64,000 nt of DNA from Natronomonas pharaonis DSM 2160 (GCF_000026045.1 NC_007426.1:930001-994000), one strand, 5' to 3'. Counted from the first letter of the stretch, positions 5,297-24,431 are shown. Notes: generated by a model from the letters alone, not told the origin. Numbers and translations: made by a program.

Positions 5297-6223
5297 ATGG
5301 ATGTATCGGTAGTCGTCTGTGTCTATTCGATGGATCGCTTCGAGTCGTTCGTCGAGGCGGTCGAAAGCGTCCTCGCACAGACGTACGATCCGATCGAGGC
5401 GATACTGGTCGTCGACGGCAACCAGGCGGTGTACGAACGCGTCGCAGACCGGTTCGGCGATCGGGACGACGTGGTGGTCCACTGCAACGAGGAAAACAGG
5501 GGTGTGTCAGTGAGTCGGACCCATGGAGCAGAGTTGGCGAGCGGGGACGTTGTCGCGTTCATCGACGACGATGCGGTGGCCGAACCAGACTGGATCGAAC
5601 ACCTCGTTGAGGCCTATGAGAAGCACGACGCGGTCGCGGTCGGTGGACGCATGACCGGAGAGTGGCTCGCCGGCCGACCGTCGTTCCTGCCCGACGAGTT
5701 CGACTGGCTGGTCGGCGTCACCCATCGCGGATTCGCCGACGGGAGAACCGAGGTTCGAAACACGTTCGAGTCGAACATCTCGTTTCGGCGGGAGGTGTTT
5801 TTGGATCTCGGCGGGTTCGATCCCGAACTGGGGCCGACCGGGGAGGAGTACCGGCACTCCGAAGGTGCCGAGATCGGGGCTCGGCTCGAAGCAGAATACG
5901 ATCGCGGCGTCATGTACATTCCGGAGGCCATCGTGCGCCACAAGGTGTTCGAACACCGGACGCGGCTGTCGTGGCTTTGTCGTCGGGCGTTCGAACAGGG
6001 CGTCTCGAAGCGGGCGATGAAACGCCGGACCGATGGCTCCTCGGCCGAAGAGTTCGGGTTCCTCCGATCGCTGTTCCTCGAGCATCTCCCCCGCCGGCTC
6101 CGAGAGCTGATCGACGAGCCGTCCGTGGCGGGAGTCGCCCAGATCGTGATGCTATTCGTCTTCACTGGTCTGGTTGGAGTCGGGTACCTCTTCGAGAGCG
6201 CTTGGGGGATCGTCAGTCGATAG
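5297..6223 (+). CDS. aglG: Family 2 glycosyltransferase, AglG-like
   Basis: A 308-residue GT-A glycosyltransferase. The nucleotide-sugar fold starts at the N-terminus (VSVVVCVYSMDRFESFVEAV), followed by VVDGN, the region GDVVAFIDDDAVAEPDW carrying the metal-binding DDD motif, and the acceptor region NTFESNISFRREVF. A hydrophobic stretch near the C-terminus (about 278-300) suggests one membrane anchor. The sequence closely resembles AglG of Haloferax volcanii, the glucuronosyltransferase acting on glucosyl-dolichyl phosphate in S-layer N-glycosylation. Assignment to AglG rather than another GT2 of the agl pathway is by recognition and is less certain than the family. Confidence 0.7.
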   Translation: MDVSVVVCVYSMDRFESFVEAVESVLAQTYDPIEAILVVDGNQAVYERVADRFGDRDDVVVHCNEENRGVSVSRTHGAELASGDVVAFIDDDAVAEPDWIEHLVEAYEKHDAVAVGGRMTGEWLAGRPSFLPDEFDWLVGVTHRGFADGRTEVRNTFESNISFRREVFLDLGGFDPELGPTGEEYRHSEGAEIGARLEAEYDRGVMYIPEAIVRHKVFEHRTRLSWLCRRAFEQGVSKRAMKRRTDGSSAEEFGFLRSLFLEHLPRRLRELIDEPSVAGVAQIVMLFVFTGLVGVGYLFESAWGIVSR

Positions 6224-7613: not shown

Positions 7614-8861
7614 ATGATACTGTTTTCAGCGCTCACGATCGCGATCGTCTCGGTCGCGAGCACGATCGCCTCGGTTCGGAACGCCTTCGCACCGATCCGG
7701 AAGGTCCTCGCGCTGCTCGCCACACCGATCGTCTTCCTAGTGTCGTATCTTGTCCCGCGGGACGACTCGCTGTGGCTGTTCATGGCCGGCCAGGGAGATC
7801 GGTTCGCGGACAACTCGAAGTATCTGTTTCTCTACTGTGACTGCCAGCCAGACGTCCGGAACGTCTGGATCGGCACCGACGAGCGGATCGTCGCGGAGTT
7901 GCGCGAGCACGGCTACGAGGCGTATACGAGACACAGTCTCGCCGGGCGGTGGCGGCTGCTACGGGCGGGCTACTGGTTCGAGACCCACGGCCCAATCGCG
8001 CCGGCGTACGCGGGTCGGGCGCGGCTAATACACCTGACCCACGGCAACTACCTCAAAGTGATGCTGGAGGACCACACCAGGGACTGGCCCTGGATCGTCC
8101 AGGTGCTCGTCGAGTTCTTCTTCGAGCGTCGCCGCCGGTACGTCGTCACGGGCAGCGGGCCGCCCCTGAAGAATATGCAGAGCATGCGCGGTGCGCCCGC
8201 AGATCGAGCCCTCATGACGGGGCTGCCCCGGAACGACGCGCTGTTCGACGCGTTCCAAGACGAGGAATTGGGGCTGGAGGAGTCCGCACTAGCGGCGGTC
8301 CGCGATCGGGCCGCCGAGGGGCCGGTGCTGCTGTACGCCCCGACGTATCGCGAGGGGTACGGCGAGCGGAACGGCGTCCCACTGTCGGAGCTCGATCTCG
8401 GACTGGAGCGGCTCGATTCGGTGCTCCGGTCCCACGACGCGACGCTGTATATCTCCCATCACCCGGCGACGACGTTCGATCGGGATCTCGAAGGGCTCGA
8501 TCGAGTGACTGTCCTCGAATCGGGCGGGGATCTCTATCCGTTCCTGCGGGAGTGTGACGTGCTCGTGACCGACTACTCGGGCATCTTTTACGACTTCCTG
8601 CTGCTCGATCGGCCGATGGTCTTCTTCGCCCCGGACCTGGAGGTGTATCTCGAGGATCGAGATCTGTATTTCGACTACGAGGACCACGTGCCGGGGACGA
8701 TCGCGACGACGCCCGAGGCCTTTGTCGAGTCCGTGCGGGCGATCCTGGAGGGGGCCGACGAGCACGGTGACGATCGGGCCGCTGTGCGGGAGGCGTTCTA
8801 CGACGATCCGGACGGCGAGGCCTGCGAGCGTGTCTATCATACTGTCAGGGACGAGGCGTGA
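7614..8861 (+). CDS. CDP-glycerol glycerophosphotransferase family protein (TagB/TarF-like)
   Basis: A 415-residue GT-B protein. Residues 1-50 form a hydrophobic N-terminal anchor. The rest matches the CDP-glycerol:poly(glycerophosphate) transferase family: an N-terminal HLTHGNYLK (HG motif for acceptor binding), then LLYAPTYREGYG, YISHHP, and VLVTDYSGIFYDFLLLDRPMVFF. The last motif is the family's CDP-alditol site. In bacteria such enzymes build teichoic acids; haloarchaeal members sit in surface-glycan clusters and their donor is not established. The stop codon overlaps the possible GTG start of the next gene. Confidence 0.8.
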   Translation: MILFSALTIAIVSVASTIASVRNAFAPIRKVLALLATPIVFLVSYLVPRDDSLWLFMAGQGDRFADNSKYLFLYCDCQPDVRNVWIGTDERIVAELREHGYEAYTRHSLAGRWRLLRAGYWFETHGPIAPAYAGRARLIHLTHGNYLKVMLEDHTRDWPWIVQVLVEFFFERRRRYVVTGSGPPLKNMQSMRGAPADRALMTGLPRNDALFDAFQDEELGLEESALAAVRDRAAEGPVLLYAPTYREGYGERNGVPLSELDLGLERLDSVLRSHDATLYISHHPATTFDRDLEGLDRVTVLESGGDLYPFLRECDVLVTDYSGIFYDFLLLDRPMVFFAPDLEVYLEDRDLYFDYEDHVPGTIATTPEAFVESVRAILEGADEHGDDRAAVREAFYDDPDGEACERVYHTVRDEA

Positions 8862-8929
8862 GAAGACAGGCGACTCGTGGTGAACTCGATAGCGGTACGT
8901 ATTTCCACCGGACCGACCAACCGGAGATC

Positions 8930-10063
8930 ATGTCGGAGCCCGACGACGTCTGTGTCGTCACCCACCCGATCGGGTCCGCCTCCGAGAGTCACGCGGAGAC
9001 GTTGCTCGACATCCTCGGGGCGATCACGGACGTTTCGCTGGTCGCCATCTCTGTCGCTGAGGAGTCCCCGCTCCGCGAGGAGTACGACACGATCGAGGTC
9101 TCGAGGGTCGGCACCGGCGGGCCGATCCCGATCGCCGCCCTGCGGTTTCTGGCGAATCAGGTCCGGATGGCGATGATCCTCCGAAGGCGGCCGGAAGAGG
9201 TCGTGCTCTTCTTCGGGGTGACCGCCTATCTGCTCCCGATCGTGGCCGCGAAACTCGCCGGAAAGACGGTCGTACTCCAGCCGCGGGGGAACGTCCCGCT
9301 GACCCTCCGCCTTCACTGGGAGCGACGGCTGCCGGACGTGCTGGCCCGCGGGCTGGCTGGCGTGGTGTGGTCCATGGAGCGGCTGGGATATCACGCCGCG
9401 GATGCGATCATTACCTACACGCCCTCGATGGCCGAGGAGCTGGGGCTCGATCGGTTCGAGGAGAAGCTGTACCCGAACGGGGCGCGGTACGTGGATACGG
9501 ATGAATTTTACCCGCGAGTCCCGTTCGAAGAGCGCGATCGCGTGGTCGGGTTTCTGGGCCGGCTCGACGAGGAGAAGAACGTTCGAACGCTGGCGGCGGT
9601 GGCGAAGGAGTTGCCCGAGGACGTGACGTTTCGGTTTATCGGTGATGGCGATCTGCGGGAGGAACTGGAGGAAGAGCTTGCCGCGGAGATCGAGGCGGGA
9701 AAGGTGGAGTTTACCGGGTGGGTCGATCACGACGAGGTGCCCCGGCAGTTGAGCGAATTGCGGTTGCTCGTGTTGCCTTCGGAGCCGACCGAGGGGCTGC
9801 CGACGGTGATTCTGGAAGCAATGGCTTGTGGGACACCCGTGCTTGCGACACCTGTTTCGGGAGTGCCGGACGTGGTTCGGCAGGGCGAAACCAGTTTTCT
9901 GATGGACGAGGTTGCAGGCGAGGCAATTGCACGGGACATCGAGGGAATTCTCGACCGCGATGACCTGACGGAGCTGAGTCAGTATGCTCGGGAACACATC
10001 AAAGCCGAGTACAGCTTCGACGCTGCCGTCCGGCGGTGGCGGAGGGTACTCGAAGCATTATAA
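8930..10063 (+). CDS. Family 4 glycosyltransferase
   Basis: A GT-B fold retaining glycosyltransferase of about 377 residues. It has an N-terminal acceptor domain, a hinge near NGARYVD, and a donor domain with VVGFLGRLDEEKNV, FIGDGDLREEL, FTGWVDHDEVP, LLVLPSEPTEGLPTVILEAM (the EX7E motif) and GTPVLATPVSGVPDVV. I chose the ATG at 8930 because homologous sequence (VCVVTHP) begins just after it. The frame extends to a GTG at 8858 that overlaps the previous stop, so translational coupling from there is an alternative. Like its upstream neighbour it is rich in GATC, unlike the core genes. Confidence 0.82.
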   Translation: MSEPDDVCVVTHPIGSASESHAETLLDILGAITDVSLVAISVAEESPLREEYDTIEVSRVGTGGPIPIAALRFLANQVRMAMILRRRPEEVVLFFGVTAYLLPIVAAKLAGKTVVLQPRGNVPLTLRLHWERRLPDVLARGLAGVVWSMERLGYHAADAIITYTPSMAEELGLDRFEEKLYPNGARYVDTDEFYPRVPFEERDRVVGFLGRLDEEKNVRTLAAVAKELPEDVTFRFIGDGDLREELEEELAAEIEAGKVEFTGWVDHDEVPRQLSELRLLVLPSEPTEGLPTVILEAMACGTPVLATPVSGVPDVVRQGETSFLMDEVAGEAIARDIEGILDRDDLTELSQYAREHIKAEYSFDAAVRRWRRVLEAL

Positions 10064-10145: not shown

Positions 10146-11126
10146 ATGACAACCAATCAAAATAAACAGGAGCGGGCGACGTATATCCAGTCGGTTGTAA
10201 AGGAGGAGTTCGACAGAGACGTTACCGTTCGTCCAGTCACGCGCTCCCTCTATGAGGTGACTGTCGGCGACGATTCGATACGGTATGCGAAATGGTGGGA
10301 CCGGAAATTCGACGAACTCATGCGATTGACCGAACTCGATACTGACATCGGGATGCCCAAGAGTCGGGTGTTCGAGGGCGACGTATACATTCAACTCATG
10401 GAGCCTGCACCCGGGCGACCGCTCTCTCATCAGCTTGTCCTTCGCTGTGTCCCCGGTCTCTGGTGGCATTCGCGGGACCAGGTCGAAGCGGCAGTGACAC
10501 AGGTTGGAAGATACATTGGTCGCCTCCATCAAGAGACATCGAACGAATCGACAGAAATCGATATATCTAACCTTCATATTGATAAATACGACGCAGTGTC
10601 TGATGGATCTATTCACCCGCGGTTGGAACAATAACTTGACAGCGAACTAGTCGAAGAAATATGGTCAAGGGTTGAACGGTACGACGACTCACAACAAATC
10701 TCATCCCTCATTCATGGCGATTTAATGTTATATCATGCTTATACTGACTTCAGCAGCGTCTCGCTTATTGATTTTGACGGGGTTGCAACCGGACATCCCC
10801 TTGAAGACGTTGCGATATTTAAATCAGCGTTGGAACTGATTATACAGCGACTACCATATACAGGTTGGACACAATATCAAAAACTCTGTGATGCGTTCGA
10901 TGAGGGTTATCTCAAGACGGCCCCGTCCGAGACCAATTCCAGAAAGCTTGAAGAATTTCTCCATACGATACATCATCTCACCATTCTTCTATATTATTTT
11001 GAAAGGCTTCCAAAGAAATTGGAGAGTCAGTGCGAGTATGCCAAATCGTCACGTTTGAAGCTCTCTGCACTATCAATTATCGATACGTGGCTTCTAAAAC
11101 GCTCTCTCAAACGTCTGCTTTTGTAG
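10146..11126 (+). pseudogene. Aminoglycoside-phosphotransferase-fold kinase interrupted by one in-frame stop
   Basis: Codons before and after a TAA at 10632-10634 are in one frame and together give about 325 residues of a protein-kinase-like (APH/choline kinase) fold. The N-terminal part has a beta-rich lobe (YEVTVGDDSIRYAKWW) and VGRYIGRLHQ. The C-terminal part has the catalytic loop LIHGDLMLYH and the metal site SLIDFDGVATGHP. The usual Asn that closes HGDxxxxN is His here. Apart from the stop nothing is broken, so the mutation may be recent. A sugar, choline or similar small-molecule kinase for the nearby glycan genes is possible. Base composition is more AT-rich than the flanks. Confidence 0.7.
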
Positions 11127-12501: not shown

Positions 12502-13122
12502 ATGGGGAAGTCAGAGAAAATACGTTATGATGCGGTGTTACAACGAATCCCCGAGACTACGGAGACGATTCTTGATATTGGATGTGCTAGACATAGTGAA
12601 GAGAAGAGAGAGTCGGCAAATTTACATGAGTATCTGATAACAAACACCGAGTGCCACGTACAAGGAATAGATGTGCTTGAGGAAGAGATCGAAAAGATGC
12701 GGAATGAAGGGTACGATGTTCAGGTGGGGGACGCCGAAATCTTTGAGTCGGAAACCGAGTTTGATGTTATCGTTGCTGGTGAGGTTATAGAACATCTGAA
12801 AAACATAGGGAAGTTCATCCGCACTGCGGAGAGCAATCTCGCTGTGGGGGGGAAACTGATAATCACGACCCCGAATCCGGACGGCTTCGCGTATTTCAGG
12901 AAAGCACTGTTCAACCAGCCAAACAACCCCACACACACCTGCTGGGTAGACCCTAAGAACCTTGAGCAGCTTATTTCCATCACCGAAACAGATCTGCAAC
13001 TAAACGAATGGACATACCTCCCACCAGTTGGTGGTGTTTCCATGGTCCTCTGGAAGACGGGTTTCAGCAGAGCTGCGAGCCCAGGGTACGTTGCTGAACT
13101 CTCGTTAGATTCAACTGGGTAA
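12502..13122 (+). CDS. Class I SAM-dependent methyltransferase
   Basis: A 206-residue Rossmann methyltransferase. Motif I is ETILDIGCARHSEE, the acidic residue at the end of strand 2 lies in VQGIDVLEEEIEKM, motif II/III is DVIVAGEVIEHLKNIGKF, and NLAVGGKLIITTPNPDG follows. This is the Methyltransf_11/23 pattern seen in glycan and lipid methylases. It is followed after three bases by the P-loop kinase gene, so the two are likely cotranscribed. The acceptor is unknown; a sugar or phospho-substituent of the surface glycan is plausible. The region is AT-rich. Confidence 0.75.
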   Translation: MGKSEKIRYDAVLQRIPETTETILDIGCARHSEEKRESANLHEYLITNTECHVQGIDVLEEEIEKMRNEGYDVQVGDAEIFESETEFDVIVAGEVIEHLKNIGKFIRTAESNLAVGGKLIITTPNPDGFAYFRKALFNQPNNPTHTCWVDPKNLEQLISITETDLQLNEWTYLPPVGGVSMVLWKTGFSRAASPGYVAELSLDSTG

Positions 13123-13125
13123 ACT

Positions 13126-13857
13126 ATGAGTCATATTGAATTTGTTGGGCCGCCGGGTGCTGGAAAATCGACGATTTACGGTGCCGTAATCGATAACCCG
13201 AAATTCTTTGGAGCGCTCCAAGAGGATGCTGTGAAACGGTGGATGCTACGTAAAGCACGCAAACGGTACCGGATCCTCTATCGGATGACCCCGGGTTTTC
13301 TCCGCTCACTGCTTGTCGATAGCGTTATCGAATATCGTCTCAGACGAGCGGTATTCGACGATTTTGTTCGAAGCTACCCTAACTTTCCCCATGTCTTGTC
13401 TCTGATACTGAACGAAGCACGATATCAACCGGAGACACTTCATCAACTGGTCAAACGATGTGCTGAAACATATCAAATAGGGGTTGAAACAGTCGAGGAC
13501 GATGAAACACTTTTTATCGACGAGGGCTTTTCTCAGAGCGCGGTCTCAATACTATGGCGGTTTGACGACAGACAGTTCCCACTGAGTGACTACTTCCAGC
13601 GTACGCCTACACCCAGATTACTCATCTACGTGGATGCCCCAGTCGACACATGCATTCAGAGACAACAAAAACGGGGAAACGTTCCTGCCTCAAAAGAATG
13701 GGTCTCGGAGGATATTCAAACGGTTCAATACGACTTGGATAACATTTGTCAGCAGGTAGTGACGGCAGCAGAAAAGCATACGCAGGTACTAACCATTAAC
13801 AATACCGGTGGTATCGACACTGCGGTGGACCGCATTCGTTCGGCACTGTCCAACTGA
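13126..13857 (+). CDS. P-loop kinase-like protein
   Basis: A 243-residue P-loop NTPase that begins MSHIEFVGPPGAGKSTIYGA (Walker A). A Walker B-like segment is TLFIDEGFSQSAV, and RLLIYVDAPVDTCIQRQQKRG resembles the lid region of nucleoside and adenylylsulfate-type kinases. No DNA- or membrane-binding region is seen. The spacing of three bases to the methyltransferase suggests joint transcription. The substrate is unknown. A kinase of this general class (Cj1415-like) belongs to the Campylobacter phosphoramidate pathway, but the link here is only contextual. Confidence 0.6.
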   Translation: MSHIEFVGPPGAGKSTIYGAVIDNPKFFGALQEDAVKRWMLRKARKRYRILYRMTPGFLRSLLVDSVIEYRLRRAVFDDFVRSYPNFPHVLSLILNEARYQPETLHQLVKRCAETYQIGVETVEDDETLFIDEGFSQSAVSILWRFDDRQFPLSDYFQRTPTPRLLIYVDAPVDTCIQRQQKRGNVPASKEWVSEDIQTVQYDLDNICQQVVTAAEKHTQVLTINNTGGIDTAVDRIRSALSN

Positions 13858-15380: not shown

Positions 15381-15853
15381 CCGCCACGGCCCATATAACA
15401 ACAAATTAGTCTCATATCTGGACTTGGACTACATTATTACTCAGAGGATGTTTAGGCAGTGACATTTGACAGGTTGAACCTACAGCTTATTTTATTGTCT
15501 GATTTGATCAATCACATTACCGGGATCTCCATCATATAGGATACCGCTGTCTGTCCAAAAGTCGTAATCTTTGGTCGGTACTTGCCAATTCCCATAGACT
15601 CGTTTCAGATACTCCTCAGGCTGGGAGGGTAGGTATACGCCGTGTTCCTCACTGTACATGCGGTCTTCGTAATGGTATTTTGGTACTTTTCTAACTTTGA
15701 TTTTATTTATTGTATTCAAAACTGGATCCATAATAGTATTATCTTTGACATACCAGTGATAGGCCGAATGTAAACGAGAGATTAGGTTCGCCTTTGATAT
15801 TCGTCTATGAGTCACATTCCAAGCATACTGCTCCCCCGCATGATAAACAATAA

Positions 15854-16856
15854 CGCTCTTCGGAAGCAGATTGTTGGTCGGGTAGAGCTGTCGCTGTGAA
15901 AGCGTAGCGGGCAAGGGTGACGCGAACGCGTCACCCGAACGCAATGTTCCCATTTGAATTGCTGAGCTCAGAGGCGAGCGCCGCGAACCTGCTGGAGCAG
16001 GTTCGCTGGCGCGAGGGCCTCTGTTGCCCGCGCTGCCGGTCTGAGTCGGTGATCAAACACGGCAGCTATCGAGAGTACCAGCGGTATCTCTGTAAGGATT
16101 GCGACCGCACGTTCAACGACAAGACCGGCACGATCTTCGCGCACGCGAAGATCGGCCTCGACAAGCTGTTGTTCGCGTTCTACTCGTTGCTCCGGTTCAA
16201 CACGAGTATCCGCCAGTTAGACGCTGAAATTGACGTGTCGTATCGCTCACTTCGCCGGCGCGTCGAGCAGTTCGCCAGAACGCTCGACGCGCCAGCCATC
16301 AACCTCGTTGGCCCGGTCGAGATCGACGAGTTCTACGTCTCTGCCGGGAAGAAGGGCCGCGAGCGCGACCGAGAGTCGCGCTCGCGTGCTCTCTCGAAAC
16401 GCGGACGAGGAACGTATGAGGAGGACAAACCACCAGTGTTCACGCTCGTTGATCGCGGCACCGGTCAGCGATACGTCGTCCCGGCGAAATCCGCCGACGA
16501 AGCGACGGTGCGACTCCTTCTCGAAAACCACGAGAAGGAGTCGCTAACCGTCTATACCGACGGATTTCGGGCATACGATCCACTTGACGATGATGAGGAC
16601 TTCCACCGAGAATCAGTAATTCACGGTGACGGCGAGTACGTTGATGGAGACGCACACGTGAACACGTGCGAGAGCCACGCGTCGCTGGCGCGACGGTGGC
16701 TCTCGCCACATCGAGGCGTCTCAAAGGACAAACTGACAGCGTATCTTAGACCGTTCCAACTTCGGCGACGAATCCTCCGCAAACCGGGACGAGAAGCACT
16801 GAAACAGATTATTCGAGAAGTTCTCTGACTCACCAACAATGTACTTCACAAGAGCG
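15854..16856 (+). mobile_element. IS1595-family insertion sequence with imperfect terminal repeats and 8-bp target duplication
   Basis: About 1.0 kb. The ends are imperfect inverted repeats of 34 bases (15854-15887 and 16823-16856); 26 positions agree by eye, including the outer CGCTCTT and an inner ATTGTTGGT. The element is flanked by AACAATAA at 15846-15853 and again at 16857-16864. An 8-bp duplication is typical of the IS1595 family. It holds one transposase gene whose stop codon lies inside the right repeat. The clean duplication and intact transposase suggest a recent insertion. Confidence 0.88.
15944..16828 (+). CDS. IS1595-family transposase (ISXO2-like DDE domain)
   Basis: About 294 residues from the ATG at 15944; an in-frame GTG at 15917 would add nine. 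The N-terminal zinc ribbon has CCPRC, CKDCDRTF and a KTGTIF stretch, followed by a helix-turn-helix-like segment (SIRQLDAEIDVSYRSLRRRV). The DDE/N core shows GPVEIDEFYV (first D), TVYTDGFRAY (second D) and HVNTCESHASLARRWLSPHR (C-terminal catalytic N/E region). All expected parts are present and the frame is intact, so the element may still be active. It is related to the decayed fragment at 5043-5198. Confidence 0.88.
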   Translation: MFPFELLSSEASAANLLEQVRWREGLCCPRCRSESVIKHGSYREYQRYLCKDCDRTFNDKTGTIFAHAKIGLDKLLFAFYSLLRFNTSIRQLDAEIDVSYRSLRRRVEQFARTLDAPAINLVGPVEIDEFYVSAGKKGRERDRESRSRALSKRGRGTYEEDKPPVFTLVDRGTGQRYVVPAKSADEATVRLLLENHEKESLTVYTDGFRAYDPLDDDEDFHRESVIHGDGEYVDGDAHVNTCESHASLARRWLSPHRGVSKDKLTAYLRPFQLRRRILRKPGREALKQIIREVL

Positions 16857-17293
16857 AACAATAATATCAACTTTGACATCATAACTGCGAGGTCTCCCCT
16901 TAACTGCAAATACTTTCTTTTGATATGTTTTTGTTTTGTATTCATAATCTTCGGACTCTTCGAACATGTCAATGACTTTCTCAACGTCCGTGGACCAGAC
17001 ACCGAGATCGATATCGTCATCCCAACTTATGAGATGGCCTTCGCGGACTAATCCGAGTAAATTGCCCAAATCAACCCAGTAGGCGACCTTGTTAGTTTCC
17101 AGCTCAGCACAGATGTCGAAAAACTGCTCTTCAATGTCCATAGCGGAGCCGTCGCGTTTCGAACAATTAAATATTAACGGACGAGCTAGTTGAACAGCCA
17201 TGGAGAATCATAGACCCGCGAGCTGATCGAATAAGAAACATCAGTACTTCACAAAGCCCGTTAGTTAGGACATCTGCCTGCTGAAGGTGTGTT

Positions 17294-17629: not shown

Positions 17630-18015
17630 CCCAGCAAGCGTTTTCGCAAGTTGCAACGCTGTTGCGCCGGCGGCTGACCGCCGCCGACACCGACAGCTCC
17701 GTTTTTGATCAGCGTTGCTCGGCTGTGCTGGCGACTCATCAACAGATGACTCAGGTCGGGTTAACTGGCGATGCTTTGTGAGGTACTGAATTTGGTACAG
17801 TGGGATTCACCACCTTTCGACGGTGAGAATAATCGGATTAGATTTGGTCCCCGTCCGCATTCGTATCCAGCACAAACAGTGGCAGGAGTACCGCGACGAA
17901 GTCTGGAACAACCCCAGTAAGGACGCTTCCTGGCATCCCGACCTACAGCAACCCGACTGACCCGTCCTTTCGGTGTGTTTTTACGTCTCTCCGCGAAAGT
18001 TTGCCCACAGGTTAT
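17630..18015. other. Non-coding, repeat-scarred stretch before the flippase gene
   Basis: No convincing gene. A short + frame at about 17855-17960 ends IQHKQWQEYRDEVWNN and then WHPDLQQPD before a TGA; it looks like the tail of some lost protein but I do not recognise it. A GC-rich inverted segment (GGCGGC TGACCGCC) lies near 17673-17690. The stretch follows the ISH3 remnant and is probably transposon debris. Confidence 0.4.
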
Positions 18016-19449
18016 ATGAGGATCGGCCAGACCTCCGTGATCTACTTTCTCGGCAAGGTCACGGCCTCCGTCGTCGGCTTCCTCGCCACGATCTACTTCG
18101 CTCGAGTTCTCGGCGCAGAAGTGCTCGGCTTCTACGCCGTCGCGATCGCCGTCGCCGGCTGGCTCAAGCTCGGTGGCTCGATGGGCGTCAGCTCGGCCGT
18201 CCAGAAACGAATGAGTGAAGGCGACGATCCGGACCGGTACTTCGTCGCGGGCGCGCTGATGGTCGCCGCGTTCGCGGCCGTGGCCGTCTCAGTGCTGCTT
18301 CTCTTTCGCGACCAGGTGAACGCCTACGTCGGTGCGGAAGCAGCCCTTCTCGTCGCTTTACTGGTCACCGTCCAGCTCCTGTTTGCCATCGTCGGGGCCG
18401 GACTGAAAGGACAGCGTCGAGTCCACGTCTACGGCGTTCTCAAACCACTCAAGGAAGCGTCCCAGAGCCTGACACAGGTTGCACTCGTCGTTCCCGTCCT
18501 CTTCGGCCTCGGTCTCACGGGACTCCTCGCGGGCAAGGCGATCGGTGCCTTCCTCGTCACGCTCCTCGCTATCGCGGTGTTGGGCGTCAGTTTCAAACGT
18601 CCAACACTCGAACATTTCAAGAGTCTCCTCGATTTTGCCAAGTACTCCTGGCTCGGGAGCGTCGAGAGCCGGACCTTCAAGGAAGCTGATATCGTAATTA
18701 TGGGATTTTTCGTCTCCTCCGCACTCATCGGCGTCTACTCCATCGCCTGGAGTCTGACGATGTTTCTTACCCTTTTTGGCTCTTCGGTGCGGACGACGCT
18801 CTTTCCTGAGATCAGCAACGCAGCATCGACCAAAGGGAAAGACGCCATCTCACTCATCGAAGATGGGATATCGTACCAGGGACTGATCCTGATACCCGGA
18901 TTCGTTGGTGGCACGATACTCTCCGAACAGATTCTGCAGATATATGGTGACGAGTTCGTCCAGGGAACGGCTGTCCTCTGGATACTCATTCTGGCCGTCC
19001 TGTTGAAGGGGTACCAGTCCCAGTTCCTCACTGCACTCAACGGCCTGGATCGGCCCGATATCTCGTTCTACATCTACACCGCCTTTATTCTCTCCAACCT
19101 AATTTTGAACGTCACCCTTATCTACCTATTCGGTTGGGTCGGTGCCGCAATCGCAACAGCACTCTCTGCAGGTGTGGGGCTCTCGCTCTCATACATCGCC
19201 GTCAAGCGGCTGTCATCATTTAAAACACCAACAGAGATGATCGCTAAACAGCTAACTTCGGCACTGCTTATGGGTATTTTCGTCTATGCCGGTTTGTATA
19301 TCGAACAGACATTCGGACTGATTGAGTACAACGCCATCACAGTCGGTATTCTCGTATTTTCAGGCGCTCTGCTATACTTTGTTTTACTGTTCGTATTGTC
19401 AGAGGAGTTCCGGCGTACCACACGGAGAAATTTACCCGGGTTTGGGTGA
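18016..19449 (+). CDS. Polysaccharide flippase (MOP superfamily, AglR/Wzx-like)
   Basis: A membrane protein of about 477 residues with roughly 12-14 hydrophobic segments, starting MRIGQTSVIYFLGKVTASVV, the usual N-terminus of oligosaccharide flippases (VGFLATIYFARVLGAEVLGFY). It would move lipid-linked glycans across the cytoplasmic membrane. I chose the ATG at 18016; the frame opens with a TTG at 18001. It is the natural partner for the glycosyltransferases of this island and lies upstream of the phosphoramidate-type trio. Haloferax AglR belongs to the same superfamily, but orthology is not shown. Confidence 0.85.
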   Translation: MRIGQTSVIYFLGKVTASVVGFLATIYFARVLGAEVLGFYAVAIAVAGWLKLGGSMGVSSAVQKRMSEGDDPDRYFVAGALMVAAFAAVAVSVLLLFRDQVNAYVGAEAALLVALLVTVQLLFAIVGAGLKGQRRVHVYGVLKPLKEASQSLTQVALVVPVLFGLGLTGLLAGKAIGAFLVTLLAIAVLGVSFKRPTLEHFKSLLDFAKYSWLGSVESRTFKEADIVIMGFFVSSALIGVYSIAWSLTMFLTLFGSSVRTTLFPEISNAASTKGKDAISLIEDGISYQGLILIPGFVGGTILSEQILQIYGDEFVQGTAVLWILILAVLLKGYQSQFLTALNGLDRPDISFYIYTAFILSNLILNVTLIYLFGWVGAAIATALSAGVGLSLSYIAVKRLSSFKTPTEMIAKQLTSALLMGIFVYAGLYIEQTFGLIEYNAITVGILVFSGALLYFVLLFVLSEEFRRTTRRNLPGFG

Positions 19450-19766
19450 TTGAGTTTGGCGAACACCAGCTGTACATCGTTGTTCGCTTCTCCACTAATG
19501 ATGCTATCTTGAAGGTAGTTCCTCGAGTCGATTGGATGTTTTTCGAGAGGATACTCAACTCAGCGATAACTCCCAAAATCAATATCGATTCGAGACGAAC
19601 CGGTTTGATTATATCGGACAATTTTCCTCGTTCAGACTATCCTATATTTCTGCACAATTGACTGCTGATCTTCCCGCGAGGACACTATAGTGTAGATCAT
19701 CATCAAAATGTCGGGAGTCATCGCAAGCGAAAGAACATAAATAAACCTCCACCAAAGGTATTGTTG
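19450..19766. other. Intergenic region upstream of the phosphoramidate-type trio
   Basis: About 317 AT-rich bases with no convincing gene. A short + frame at 19446-19661 has no family match that I recognise and no clear ribosome-binding site. A promoter-like element lies at its right end. Confidence 0.4.
19736..19745 (+). promoter_or_regulatory. TATA-like element for the trio operon
   Basis: The sequence CATAAATAAA lies about 22-31 bases before the ATG at 19767. That spacing fits an archaeal TATA box serving a leaderless transcript. No BRE was verified. Confidence 0.45.
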
Positions 19767-22700
19767 ATGACTCGCCCCTTCGTCGTTATCCTCGGTGCCG
19801 GCCGCCCCTTCTCCGGCACCGTCCCCTCGGCACTCCAGCGCATCTCCGGCGATCGTCGCGTCCTCGATTGGCTCATCGATGCGTTCAGCACCACCCTGGA
19901 AAACCCAGAGATCCACTTCGTCGGCGGCTACCGCATGGACGAGATCGTCGAGGAGTACCCCGACATCCATTTCTCGCGCAACGAAGACTGGGAGGAGACC
20001 GGCACGATCGGCTCGCTCCTGTCGGCCCCCCTCGACGAGACCCGGCCCACCTACGTCTGCTATGCCGACGTCGTCTTCCAGCCCGAGATCGTCGCCGACC
20101 TCCAGAGCACCGCCGCCGACGCCGCGGTCGCGATCGACGAACGCTGGCGGACCCGCTACCGATCGCGCTCCGAGGCGAGCCGCGAGCGCGCCGAGAAAGC
20201 CCGCTACGAGACTGCCGACGAACCGTACGTCGATCGCGTCGCATCCGACCTCGATCCCGAGGAGGCCGACGCCGAGTTCACCGGCCTCACTCGACTCTCC
20301 CCCGCCGCGATGCGGTTCGTCTCCGATCTCGTCGATCGCAGCCTGATCGGCCCCGAGGACGACCTCGCGGATCTGGTCACCGCCCTCTCGGTCGGCGAGA
20401 TCCACCCCGAACCGGTCGACGTGGCGGGCCACTGGGCGGAACTCGAAACCGCAGAGGACCTGGCGCGGTTCGTCCTCGACACCAAGGCCAACACGCTCAA
20501 GCGCCTCGAATCGATGGTCACCGAGAGCACGATCGCCCCCCAGTACACCTTCACCGTCGACGACTTCGAGGACGATCCGACCACCGTCGCCGACACGATC
20601 GAGGCCACCTTCGATCGCCCGGTGATCGTCCGATCGAGCACCCTCGCCGAGGACGGCTGGGAGCACTCCAACGCCGGCCGCTTCGAGAGCGTCCTCGACG
20701 TGCCGCCCGACGACGAGACCGCCCTGCGGAACGCGATCGAAGCTGTGATCGACTCCTACGACGGCAACCCACACAACCAGGTGCTCGTCCAGCCGATGGT
20801 CCCCGACGTCGCCGCCAGTGGCGTCGTGATGACCCGATCGGTCGAACACGCCAGCCCCTACTACGTGATCAACTACGACGCCGAGACGGGCAGCACGGTC
20901 ACCGTCACTGACGGCAGCGGCGACGACATCCGGACGATTATCGTCCGCAAGGACACAGCTGACCGGTCCACGGCTAACGAGCCCGCAACGGGCGAATCTA
21001 TCGCTGACAGATCGGTCGCCTCAACCGGTGATCCAGCCCTCTGCCTGCCGGCTCTTCTGCGGGCAGTTGCCGAACTCGAAGAGGTCGTCGGCCACGACGG
21101 ACTAGATGTGGAGTTTGCCGTTACCGACGACGGCGAGGTGTATATTCTTCAGGTCAGACCGATGACAGTCGACCCCGGTGAACAGACCGTTGACGACGGC
21201 GCTGTCGTCCGGGCGATCGAAGAAGCCCGCGATACCTTCGAGTCCCGGCAGTCAGCTTCACCGTTCGTCTTCGGCGATCGGGCGATTTATGGAGTGATGC
21301 CCGACTGGAACCCGGCAGAGATTATCGGCCGGACGCCTCGCCTGCTGGCCGACTCCCTGTACCGGTACCTGATCATGGACGAGGTCTGGGCACGCCAGCG
21401 GGCTGAATTCGGCTATCGGGATGTCCGACCCCACCCCCTCATGTTCAGCTTTGCCGGCCAGCCGTACGTCGATGTACGTGCCGATTTCAACTCTTTCATC
21501 CCTGCGGCAGTCTCGGATGAGCTGGCCGAGAAGCTGGTCGATCACTACCTCACTCGGCTTGAAGAAAACCCCGAACTCCACGACAAAATCGAGTTCGAGA
21601 TCGCGGTCACCTGCCTGCCATTCGATTTCGAGCACCGCGCCGAGCCGCTGCGGGAGGCCGGATTCACCGATGCAGAACTCGATGAACTCCGCGAGGGGTT
21701 ACGAGGAATCACTCAGGGTGCGTTTGAGCGCGTCGAAGGCGGGGTCGATATGGCGAAGGTCGACGATCTCGAACGCCGGTACGAACGTCTCAGGACGGCT
21801 GACATCCCCGACCTACAGCTTGTCCGCACTCTGCTCGAGGACTGTCGACGGCTTGGAACACTGCCGTTCGCGCATCTAGCCCGAGCAGCGTTCGTCGCCG
21901 TCTCATTGCTTCGATCCCTCGAACGGAAAGGCATCCTGACAGACGAACAGGTGTCAGAGTTTCTCAACTCACTCGAGACCGTCGCCCGTGAATTCGAACA
22001 TGACGGGTATCTGGTTGCTCAGGGAGAACTTGGTTTCGAAGAATACGTCGAGCGGTATGGGCACCTCCGGCCGGGCACATACGACATCACCTCTCCACGG
22101 TACGCCGCCGATCCGGAGGGTTATCTCCGGCCGACAGTTGAGACTGCGAGTGAACCAGATTCCCACCCCAGACCGGATGCGATCTGGGATGGCGAGACCG
22201 CAGCAGAAATCGAAGCTGAACTCGAATCGATCGGGCTTCCGGCGGATATTGATCGGTTCGTCGACTTCCTGCGTGATTCGATCAAAGGCCGAGAATATGC
22301 CAAGTTCATCTTCTCGAAGAACCTCAGCCTTGCACTCGAACGTCTGGCAGCTTACGGCCAAGAACACGATCTCGATCGCGATACCCTCTCACACGTCTCG
22401 ATCGAAGACGTTCTCGAGCTCACGACAGGGCATCCACCCCAAGAGCCGGCTGAATGGCTCCATGAACGAGCTGCTGAGGGGCAGAGACGCCACACGATCG
22501 CCCAGGCCGTCGAGCTTCCACCGCTGCTGACTGAAGAACGGGAGTTTGACCGTTTCGAACGGCCAGCGCGTGAGCCGAACTTCGTTACAACCGAGACTGT
22601 CCGCGAACAGATAGCGGAGCCGGATGAGGACGATGATCCGACACTCGACGGCCGGATCGTCCTCATTCCGCAGGCTGATCCGGGCTACGACTGGCTGTTC

Positions 22701-22883
22701 GGATACGACATCGCCGGGCTCGTGACGATGTATGGTGGAACTAATTCCCACATGGCGATCAGGGCCGCAGAGTTCGGCCTGCCAGCGGCGATCGGGGTTG
22801 GTGAATCACTTTACGAACAACTCAGCGGGGCAGAGGTAATCGAACTCGACTGCGAAGCTAAGGCAGTCGAGCGGATTCGCTAA
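19767..22883 (+). CDS. Nucleotidyltransferase / PEP-synthase-like kinase fusion (glutamine kinase-like)
   Basis: A protein of about 1038 residues. Residues 1-250 resemble a sugar-phosphate nucleotidyltransferase with a degenerate start (VILGAGRPFSGTVPSAL), a metal-site-like YADVVF and the closing HWAELETAEDLARF. Residues 260-480 are a PPDK/PEP-synthase ATP-grasp domain (PVIVRSSTLAEDGWEHSNAG, QVLVQPMVPDVAASGVVMTR, VYILQVRPMT). A long middle domain follows. The last 80 residues are the phosphohistidine swivel domain with GGTNSHMAIRAAEFGLPAAI, the catalytic His at about 995. The domains match Campylobacter glutamine kinase Cj1418, which lacks the fused N-terminal part as far as I know. The next gene starts one base after the stop. 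The frame also offers TTG starts at 19761 and 19764. Confidence 0.75.
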   Translation: MTRPFVVILGAGRPFSGTVPSALQRISGDRRVLDWLIDAFSTTLENPEIHFVGGYRMDEIVEEYPDIHFSRNEDWEETGTIGSLLSAPLDETRPTYVCYADVVFQPEIVADLQSTAADAAVAIDERWRTRYRSRSEASRERAEKARYETADEPYVDRVASDLDPEEADAEFTGLTRLSPAAMRFVSDLVDRSLIGPEDDLADLVTALSVGEIHPEPVDVAGHWAELETAEDLARFVLDTKANTLKRLESMVTESTIAPQYTFTVDDFEDDPTTVADTIEATFDRPVIVRSSTLAEDGWEHSNAGRFESVLDVPPDDETALRNAIEAVIDSYDGNPHNQVLVQPMVPDVAASGVVMTRSVEHASPYYVINYDAETGSTVTVTDGSGDDIRTIIVRKDTADRSTANEPATGESIADRSVASTGDPALCLPALLRAVAELEEVVGHDGLDVEFAVTDDGEVYILQVRPMTVDPGEQTVDDGAVVRAIEEARDTFESRQSASPFVFGDRAIYGVMPDWNPAEIIGRTPRLLADSLYRYLIMDEVWARQRAEFGYRDVRPHPLMFSFAGQPYVDVRADFNSFIPAAVSDELAEKLVDHYLTRLEENPELHDKIEFEIAVTCLPFDFEHRAEPLREAGFTDAELDELREGLRGITQGAFERVEGGVDMAKVDDLERRYERLRTADIPDLQLVRTLLEDCRRLGTLPFAHLARAAFVAVSLLRSLERKGILTDEQVSEFLNSLETVAREFEHDGYLVAQGELGFEEYVERYGHLRPGTYDITSPRYAADPEGYLRPTVETASEPDSHPRPDAIWDGETAAEIEAELESIGLPADIDRFVDFLRDSIKGREYAKFIFSKNLSLALERLAAYGQEHDLDRDTLSHVSIEDVLELTTGHPPQEPAEWLHERAAEGQRRHTIAQAVELPPLLTEEREFDRFERPAREPNFVTTETVREQIAEPDEDDDPTLDGRIVLIPQADPGYDWLFGYDIAGLVTMYGGTNSHMAIRAAEFGLPAAIGVGESLYEQLSGAEVIELDCEAKAVERIR

Positions 22884-22884
22884 T

Positions 22885-23565
22885 ATGCGCCGGCTCGGGG
22901 TCACACAGCGCGTCGAAGTCGTCGAAGAGTACGGCGAGCGTCGGGACTGCCTGGATCAGGCTTGGACTGAGCTGCTTGAGAGCTGGGAGTTCCGGCCGTT
23001 TCCGCTACCTAACACCGTTGAGAACGTTGAAACATACCTTGACTCCCTGAATCTTGATGGGATTGTACTCACGAGCGGAAACGACCTTTCAAATCTCAAA
23101 AACCCGGACGATCCGGCACCCGAACGCGATCGATTCGAACGGGCCGCCCTCGAATGGGCGATCGATCACAAAGTTCCGGTCTGTGGTGTCTGCCGCGGGC
23201 TCGAACTTCTGAACGACCATTTTGATGGAAGCCTCTCTCCTGTGTCCGGCCATGTGGCAGTGGACCACGGTGTGTCGTTCGGCTACGAGGCGATCGATTT
23301 CAGCGAGGACGCCGATACCGTTCAACTCCCATCAGAGATCAAAACAAACAGCTATCATGACTACGGGATCGATCCGTCCGGTGTGGCGGATCCACTGTCG
23401 GTGCTTGGGACTGCTGCCGATGGAACCGTTGAGGCACTGCACCACCCGGAACTCCCGGTCCTCGGGATCATGTGGCACCCGGAACGTGATCCGGATCGGC
23501 CAGAGTCGTCTCGGGCTCTCGATCGTAAGCTATTCGATGCGCTGTTCGGAGAATCTGGACAATGA
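22885..23565 (+). CDS. Class I glutamine-amidotransferase-fold hydrolase (Cj1417-like)
   Basis: A 226-residue protein of the peptidase C26 / gamma-glutamyl hydrolase type. The nucleophile elbow is VCGVCRGLELLN (Cys in GVCRG), and the His and Glu of the triad are in LGIMWHPERDPD. It lacks any synthetase partner domain, so it should act as a free hydrolase of a gamma-glutamyl bond. In the Campylobacter pathway the homologous Cj1417 releases glutamate from gamma-glutamyl-CDP-amidate to leave CDP-phosphoramidate. It is one base after the kinase gene and overlaps the next by four bases (ATGA), which indicates one operon. Activity is inferred from family and context. Confidence 0.75.
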   Translation: MRRLGVTQRVEVVEEYGERRDCLDQAWTELLESWEFRPFPLPNTVENVETYLDSLNLDGIVLTSGNDLSNLKNPDDPAPERDRFERAALEWAIDHKVPVCGVCRGLELLNDHFDGSLSPVSGHVAVDHGVSFGYEAIDFSEDADTVQLPSEIKTNSYHDYGIDPSGVADPLSVLGTAADGTVEALHHPELPVLGIMWHPERDPDRPESSRALDRKLFDALFGESGQ

Positions 23566-24431
23566 ACGATGAGACGATATCAGAGCACACGCTAGACCAG
23601 ACCGTTGGGAAGACTCCCCCCGACGAGCTGGACACTATTACAGATGGTGGTTCTAACGCTACACCTGTGGCCGTTCACCTCGCAGCAGGCCAAGGAACAC
23701 GTCTGCGACCTCTCACTGACGATCGGCCCAAGCCGCTCGTCGAACTTGGCGGTCAGTCACTGCTGGAGCAAAACGTCGAGACACTCAAAGAAGCCGGTGT
23801 CAGGGACCACGTCGTCGTCACAGGCTATGAGGGCGACCAGATCGTCGATCGTGGGTTTGAGACGGTCCACAACGATGTCTACGACGAAACCGAGATGATA
23901 TACAGCCTTTTTTGTGCCGCGGAGGCGTTTCCCGACTCTGGAGAGGGGGATCTGCTTATTTCGTACGGCGATATCGTATACGAGCGCGACGTGGTTGAGG
24001 CATTGCTGGACTGTAGCGCACCTCTCTGTGTCGCTGTCGACCGGCAGTGGCGAAAGCTATGGGAAGAACGTTTCGAGGACCCTCTCTCAGATGCTGAAAC
24101 ACTCGATATCGACGATAAGGGACGGATCCACGAGATCGGCGAGACGCCTGAGGGATACGATACGATCGATGCACAGTACGTCGGCCTGCTGAAAGTACGG
24201 AACGATCATATCGATCGATTTGTTGATGCTTATACTGAACTGGACGCTCAGACCGATGGCTATGTTTCGATTGACACGACCGCCTTCCTCCAGCAGTTGA
24301 TCGACGACGGCTGGCACCTGCAGGCGGTCTCGATTGACCGCGGTTGGCTGGAGGTGGATACGCTCGAAGACCTCGAACGGTATCGGGAGCTGCACTCCAG
24401 CGGAGAACTTTCACAATTCGTAGATATATGA
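23562..24431 (+). CDS. Nucleotidyltransferase (Cj1416-like CTP:phosphoglutamine cytidylyltransferase candidate)
   Basis: A 289-residue NTP-transferase. After a variable first 45 residues comes VAVHLAAGQGTRLRPLTDDR and PKPLVELGG, the canonical NTP and Lys-containing motif. YDETEMIYSLFCAAEAF and LLISYGDIVYE (metal-binding Asp) follow, and it closes with IDRGWLEVDTLEDLERY. The ETEMIYSLF pattern is like the phosphocholine cytidylyltransferase (LicC) group and Cj1416. In the proposed pathway it would join CMP to L-glutamine phosphate. Its ATG overlaps the upstream stop by four bases. A sugar-phosphate substrate cannot be excluded. Confidence 0.75.
   Translation: MNDETISEHTLDQTVGKTPPDELDTITDGGSNATPVAVHLAAGQGTRLRPLTDDRPKPLVELGGQSLLEQNVETLKEAGVRDHVVVTGYEGDQIVDRGFETVHNDVYDETEMIYSLFCAAEAFPDSGEGDLLISYGDIVYERDVVEALLDCSAPLCVAVDRQWRKLWEERFEDPLSDAETLDIDDKGRIHEIGETPEGYDTIDAQYVGLLKVRNDHIDRFVDAYTELDAQTDGYVSIDTTAFLQQLIDDGWHLQAVSIDRGWLEVDTLEDLERYRELHSSGELSQFVDI

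Follow-up and report, generated by a model that had tools for sequence, protein, structure and literature searches.

The window analysed here is a stretch of 64,000 nucleotides from the haloarchaeon Natronomonas pharaonis DSM 2160 (NC_007426.1:930001-994000), and our subject is a cassette of three genes within it that is predicted to make cytidine diphosphoramidate. A sequence-only reading had proposed three overlapping or abutting genes at positions 19767 to 24431, and open reading frames (ORFs) were found at exactly these positions:

19767..22883, + strand: predicted L-glutamine kinase, 1038 amino acids (aa); start ATG, TTG at 19761 possible
19767..20456, + strand: fused N-terminal nucleotidyltransferase-fold domain of the kinase (aa 1-230)
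22885..23565, + strand: predicted gamma-glutamyl-CDP-amidate hydrolase (CDP, cytidine diphosphate), 226 aa; start ATG
23562..24431, + strand: predicted phosphoglutamine cytidylyltransferase, LicC-like, 289 aa; start ATG

A one-base gap separates the stop codon of the kinase from the ATG of the hydrolase, and the hydrolase and nucleotidyltransferase (NTase) genes overlap by four bases (ATGA). The order kinase-hydrolase-NTase is the one described for Cj1418, Cj1417 and Cj1416 of Campylobacter jejuni. There, Cj1415 to Cj1418 produce CDP-phosphoramidate 3'-phosphate from glutamine, ATP and CTP (PMC11800397), cj1415 being positioned downstream of cj1416 (PMC3907429). Cj1418 is a glutamine kinase, formerly annotated as phosphoenolpyruvate (PEP) synthase or pyruvate phosphate dikinase (PPDK) (PMC10971088), and the glutamine kinase has been termed C. 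jejuni-specific (PMC9561416).

The kinase of the window comprises an N-terminal pseudo-cytidylyltransferase, an ATP-grasp domain, a central domain and a phosphohistidine swivel domain. Its Pfam matches, PPDK_N (PF01326, aa 280-473) and PEP-utilizers (PF00391, aa 961-1030), agree with the earlier description of a PEP-synthase-like kinase with ATP-grasp and phosphohistidine swivel domains. The predicted phosphohistidine is His995 (codon 22749-22751), which is fixed across the aligned relatives. Over aa 231-1036 the protein matches positions 5-787 of the 789 of NCBIfam model NF004508 (PRK05849), with 908.5 bits for a cut-off of 501. The best PEP-synthase model reached 64.5 bits (cut-off 883), and the rifamycin phosphotransferase model 30.6 bits (cut-off 999). 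The second gene had been read as encoding a free class I amidotransferase-fold hydrolase; this was borne out by a Peptidase_C26/GATase match (PF07722, 88.5 bits) and by the triad Cys103/His198/Glu200, whose columns are invariant in 88 sequences. The third product matches PF12804 (NTP_transf_3), and its best PDB sequence match is LicC (1jyk), as anticipated for a LicC/Cj1416-like NTase. It retains the catalytic arginine and lysine and both metal aspartates, as do essentially all standalone NTases of the cassettes described below.

A total of 84,980 species genomes were scanned with a central consensus query, and the best 80 of at least 561 relatives were taken. This set, chosen by similarity to the consensus, is a sample and not a census, and contains no Campylobacter. 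Haloarchaeal, plasmid and phage-collection matches were added to give 93 loci. Kinase, hydrolase and NTase were consecutive in nearly all of these, across many bacterial phyla and haloarchaea, which argues for a three-gene cassette beyond chance; since the order is conserved in many phyla, the cassette is not Campylobacter-specific. Exceptions to the order include Cupriavidus and Microvirga (kinase alone in both) as well as Clostridium guangxiense. The order is also conserved where genes for a Cj1415-type kinase and a methyltransferase lie nearby, and two archaeal genomes of the same phylum, outside the class Halobacteria (L122 and L123), have the full C. jejuni-like order, kinase-hydrolase-NTase-adenosine phosphosulfate (APS) kinase. 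Within Halobacteria, the kinase was present in 8 of 391 genomes, each of another genus; one copy is a fragment.

Three loci of this collection call for separate mention. On plasmid pAtS4e of Allorhizobium ampelinum S4 (L026, 7926-13005), the cassette precedes genes for a LysE-type exporter and a CDP-alcohol phosphatidyltransferase, and glycan genes are lacking in the vicinity; its product is perhaps an exported small molecule. A scaffold from human faeces deposited as 'Bacteriophage sp.' (L027), which may be bacterial DNA, codes for a 1011-aa protein in which kinase and hydrolase are fused. A metagenome-assembled genome (MAG) labelled Bifidobacterium breve (L092) has a cassette almost identical to those of Solirubrobacterales MAGs, and the contig is therefore probably misbinned.

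The domain formed by aa 1-230 of the kinase was absent from the sequence-only reading and is new here, as is the membership of the window in a second form of the pathway. Its AlphaFold model (predicted local distance difference test, pLDDT, 94.6) has the PntC cytidylyltransferase (6pd1/6pd2) as best PDB matches, and also matches inositol-1-phosphate cytidylyltransferase and GlmU. When 35 fused domains were compared with 87 standalone NTases, the PK lysine, which binds the nucleoside triphosphate (NTP), was lost in all 35, and the second metal aspartate in 31. The first metal aspartate was retained in 34, and the acceptor-side W, R and E in 31, 33 and 35, respectively. Judging from these residues, the fused domain is probably non-catalytic and still binds phosphoglutamine or CDP-glutamine. 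Other N-terminal fusions also occur. At eight loci (L035, L039, L040, L042, L045, L064, L065 and L089) the kinase carries an APS-kinase-type domain, which would be a natural joining of the predicted CDP-phosphoramidate kinase (fourth enzyme) with the glutamine kinase (first); such fusions are seen in Acidobacteria-type loci, and this physical connection of the two enzymes speaks for the proposed pathway. A third fusion type occurs in Euryarchaeota archaeon Ods02 (L017, 8582-9100), whose kinase has a HIGH-type cytidylyltransferase-like domain (PF01467) at its N-terminus.

A quick kinase tree, with support from the Shimodaira-Hasegawa-like approximate likelihood-ratio test only, separates a clade with the N-terminal NTase-like domain (plus three outlying sequences), to which the window kinase belongs, from a clade whose kinases either lack it or have an APS-kinase domain at the N-terminus. 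We refer to these as the long and the short form. In an alignment of both clades, 106 columns were fixed throughout, the central domain accounting for 61 of these, and a few were fixed differently between the two. The gene neighbourhoods differ as well. APS-kinase-type genes were found at 2 of 29 bacterial loci of the long form versus 34 of 47 of the short form (Fisher P = 1e-8), and linked methyltransferases at 0 of 29 versus 29 of 47 (P = 6e-9); these P values overstate the significance, because the loci are phylogenetically non-independent. Genes resembling CDP-glycerol-type glycerophosphotransferases (PF04464) were found at 16 of 29 versus 11 of 47 (P = 0.007), and formyltransferase-like genes at 16 of 35 loci of the long form. 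A Cj1415-type APS kinase was not found in the genome of the window, where the best hit was a weak, partial match of 21 bits. Searches of the window (first 40 kb) and of six haloarchaeal loci (L014-L019) gave no match to the linked methyltransferase families of the short form. A different methyltransferase is encoded at 12502-13122, with a P-loop (AAA_33) protein adjoining it at 13126-13857.

The claim of a Campylobacter-type enzyme set in an archaeon holds for its core, which is supported by kinase family, hydrolase family, NTase residues, gene order and glycan setting. It needs qualifying in that the window has a sister form of the pathway, which lacks the Cj1415-type kinase and in which the glutamine kinase has an additional N-terminal domain. 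Haloarchaea occupy three positions in the tree: the main group, in which the window is one of five members; Haloferax elongans, which has an APS kinase adjacent to its cassette; and Ods02. Their placement implies that haloarchaea probably gained the cassette at least three times.

The glycan setting is provided by the following genes of the window:

18001..19449, + strand: flippase (polysaccharide biosynthesis protein; PF13440/PF01943), 318 bases upstream of the kinase
7614..8861, + strand: CDP-glycerol-type glycerophosphotransferase (PF04464, 190 bits), candidate phosphoramidate transferase
8858..10063, + strand: GT4 glycosyltransferase (PF00534); near the cassette in L016, L017 and L019, 53-70% identity
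5297..6223, + strand: GT2 glycosyltransferase (PF00535); 68% identity to the island copy of the nearest relative
15492..17201, - strand: LicD-family phosphotransferase gene (LicD N-terminal fragment and insertion sequence transposase), apparently interrupted by an IS1595-type element (~15854-16856); a further transferase candidate, now broken

A flippase and glycosyltransferases beside the cassette had been predicted, and Pfam places the former at 18001-19449 and the latter at 5297, 8858 and 11335. The island of the nearest relative (G064) shares the GT2 gene, the PF04464 gene (60% identical), the GT4 gene, the flippase and the cassette, and a flippase homologue lies immediately upstream of the cassette at L019. 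The PF04464 gene of the window is the sole copy in its genome. PF04464 occurs in 6 of the 8 cassette-bearing haloarchaeal genomes versus 79 of 383 others (Fisher P = 0.0017), nearly all copies lying no more than about 25 kb from the cassette. In bacteria, about ten long-form loci have a PF04464-like gene straight after that for the NTase, with weak Pfam backing for these genes (17.6-22.5 bits, the cut-off being 22.1). CDP-glycerol usually comes from a TagD-type glycerol-3-phosphate cytidylyltransferase, to which the eight genomes gave no match above cut-off; it may have other sources. The IS1595-type element is bounded by 34-base imperfect inverted repeats (15854-15887 and 16823-16856), and the C-terminal LicD fragment was recognised by eye only. 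LicD was rejected as a general transferase: it is seen in the window only, interrupted, and none was found in the other cassette-bearing haloarchaea. At 10146-11126, two adjoining short ORFs have no Pfam match; one contains a phosphotransferase-like 'LIDFDGVATGHPLED' stretch, and together they are perhaps a broken kinase gene.

From the families, residues, gene order, conservation and missing genes computed here, we consider it likely that the cassette makes cytidine diphosphoramidate (CDP-NH2) from glutamine, ATP and CTP, all of the reactions being predicted. The cytidylyltransferase would join phosphoglutamine with CTP to give CDP-L-glutamine (gamma-glutamyl-CDP-amidate) and pyrophosphate, and the hydrolase would strip glutamate from it to leave CDP-NH2. 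What would accept the group, what would transfer it and what the N-terminal domain would do, we infer as follows. Because this form has neither a Cj1415-type 3'-kinase nor a linked methyltransferase, unmethylated phosphoramidate would probably be passed straight from CDP-NH2 to a glycan that is built and flipped by the island. The PF04464 enzyme would be the leading candidate for this transfer, and the N-terminal pseudo-cytidylyltransferase of the kinase would probably retain phosphoglutamine or CDP-glutamine for hand-over. Only tentatively, as a proposal less likely than not to be correct, do we suggest that bacteria and haloarchaea share a second, undescribed form of the pathway, in which a dead fused cytidylyltransferase channels intermediates, 3'-phosphorylation and methylation are omitted, PF04464 uses CDP-NH2 in place of CDP-glycerol, and archaeal glycans carry unmethylated phosphoramidate.

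Several observations weigh against the synthesis of CDP-NH2 by the cassette. The hydrolase has by far its best match with the gamma-glutamyl-CDP-amidate hydrolase model NF045546, at 116.7 bits, which is below the cut-off of 250. Nine of ten other cassette hydrolases, bacterial ones among them, scored 107-126 bits with this model (that of L018 had no match at E <= 1e-20), so the cut-off seems tuned to near kin of the characterised enzyme. The likeness of the kinase to Cj1418 would follow from the published nature of that enzyme, its partners and gene order, and not from an alignment with Cj1418 itself. To our knowledge, the clade of the window kinase has no characterised member, and we know of no biochemistry on the form with the N-terminal domain. 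The island LicD gene appears to be interrupted, and the PF04464 gene lies 11 kb from the cassette and falls within a group common in haloarchaea without it, the cassette-proximal copies of G064, G308 and Ods02 belonging to another group. Since the window copy is of this common haloarchaeal type, PF04464 was dropped as a proven transferase and kept as a candidate only. Finally, no report of phosphoramidate in archaea or archaeal glycans was found in the literature searched, most subscription papers lying outside the search.

An enzyme set of the same logic might serve another substrate: the kinase with the N-terminal domain could phosphorylate a different amide or amine, such as a glutamine bearing a substituent, and yield a substituted phosphoramidate. 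Its separate and, as far as we know, uncharacterised clade, the few columns fixed differently and the different neighbours would fit this explanation; the 61 central-domain columns fixed in both clades do not favour it, nor does the hydrolase, which fits the gamma-glutamyl hydrolase family as well as that of the other form does, and we regard it as unlikely. Somewhat less probable still is an intact cassette in a pathway that is dead in this strain, the terminal LicD transferase having been broken by the insertion sequence and the island being in decay. The LicD fragments flanking the IS1595-type element and the fragmentary ORFs at 10146-11126 could be so explained, but the cassette, flippase, PF04464 and glycosyltransferase genes are intact, and the other cassette-bearing haloarchaea have no LicD.

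It is most improbable that we are dealing with an ordinary PEP synthase, pyruvate dikinase or rifampin phosphotransferase whose neighbours are unrelated. The kinase shares its domain architecture with these enzymes, and rifampin phosphotransferase heads the Foldseek list obtained with the model of the whole kinase (pLDDT 88). This nearness is expected for an ATP-grasp plus swivel domain, and the matches had 15-17% identity and a poor superposition (template modelling score about 0.3). The models, moreover, do not group the kinase with pyruvate or rifampin phosphotransferases (908 versus at most 65 bits), scores on which the ordinary enzymes were ruled out; the gene order is kept across phyla, and a separate PPDK_N protein elsewhere in the genome is a much stronger match.

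Synthesis of CDP-NH2 by the cassette, which is the interpretation we prefer, would be of some consequence, biological phosphorus-nitrogen bonds being rare. The gene set is now seen at about 90 loci, in many bacterial phyla as well as several archaeal lineages, and its two architectures predict methylated and unmethylated products. If the interpretation is correct, archaeal surfaces bear a phosphorus-nitrogen group. How such a group is made, transferred and channelled could then be approached through its genes' pattern of occurrence, the enzymes that are missing and the fused pseudo-enzyme. The phosphoramidate group of Campylobacter is a phage receptor; a role in archaeal virus recognition is therefore conceivable. 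What is new here is how widely the cassette occurs, that it has two forms, that the kinase of one of them is fused to a pseudo-cytidylyltransferase, and that archaea probably acquired the cassette repeatedly.

Compared with the O-methyl phosphoramidate capsule pathway of C. jejuni, the window has the three enzymes Cj1418-Cj1417-Cj1416 in the same order, with intact catalytic residues and in a surface-glycan locus. It differs in the fused pseudo-cytidylyltransferase of its kinase, its archaeal host and its other transferase candidates, and in that no Cj1415-type kinase was found in its genome, nor a cassette-type methyltransferase linked to the three genes. With rifampin phosphotransferase and PEP synthase, the kinase shares the ATP-grasp and swivelling phosphohistidine domains and the expected conversion of ATP to AMP and phosphate; unlike them, it has another central domain, belongs to another family with model scores more than tenfold higher than theirs, and is alone in having amidotransferase and cytidylyltransferase partners. 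The fold of PntC and LicC is common to the free NTase and the N-terminal domain of the kinase, but the latter lacks the NTP-binding lysine and the second metal aspartate, the free NTase being the predicted active partner. Unmethylated phosphoramidate occurs in the lipopolysaccharide of Xanthomonas campestris and Shewanella, according to work cited in PMC3907429. The group predicted here would be the same, and a Shewanellaceae MAG (L105) has a kinase of the same clade; the glycan here is archaeal.

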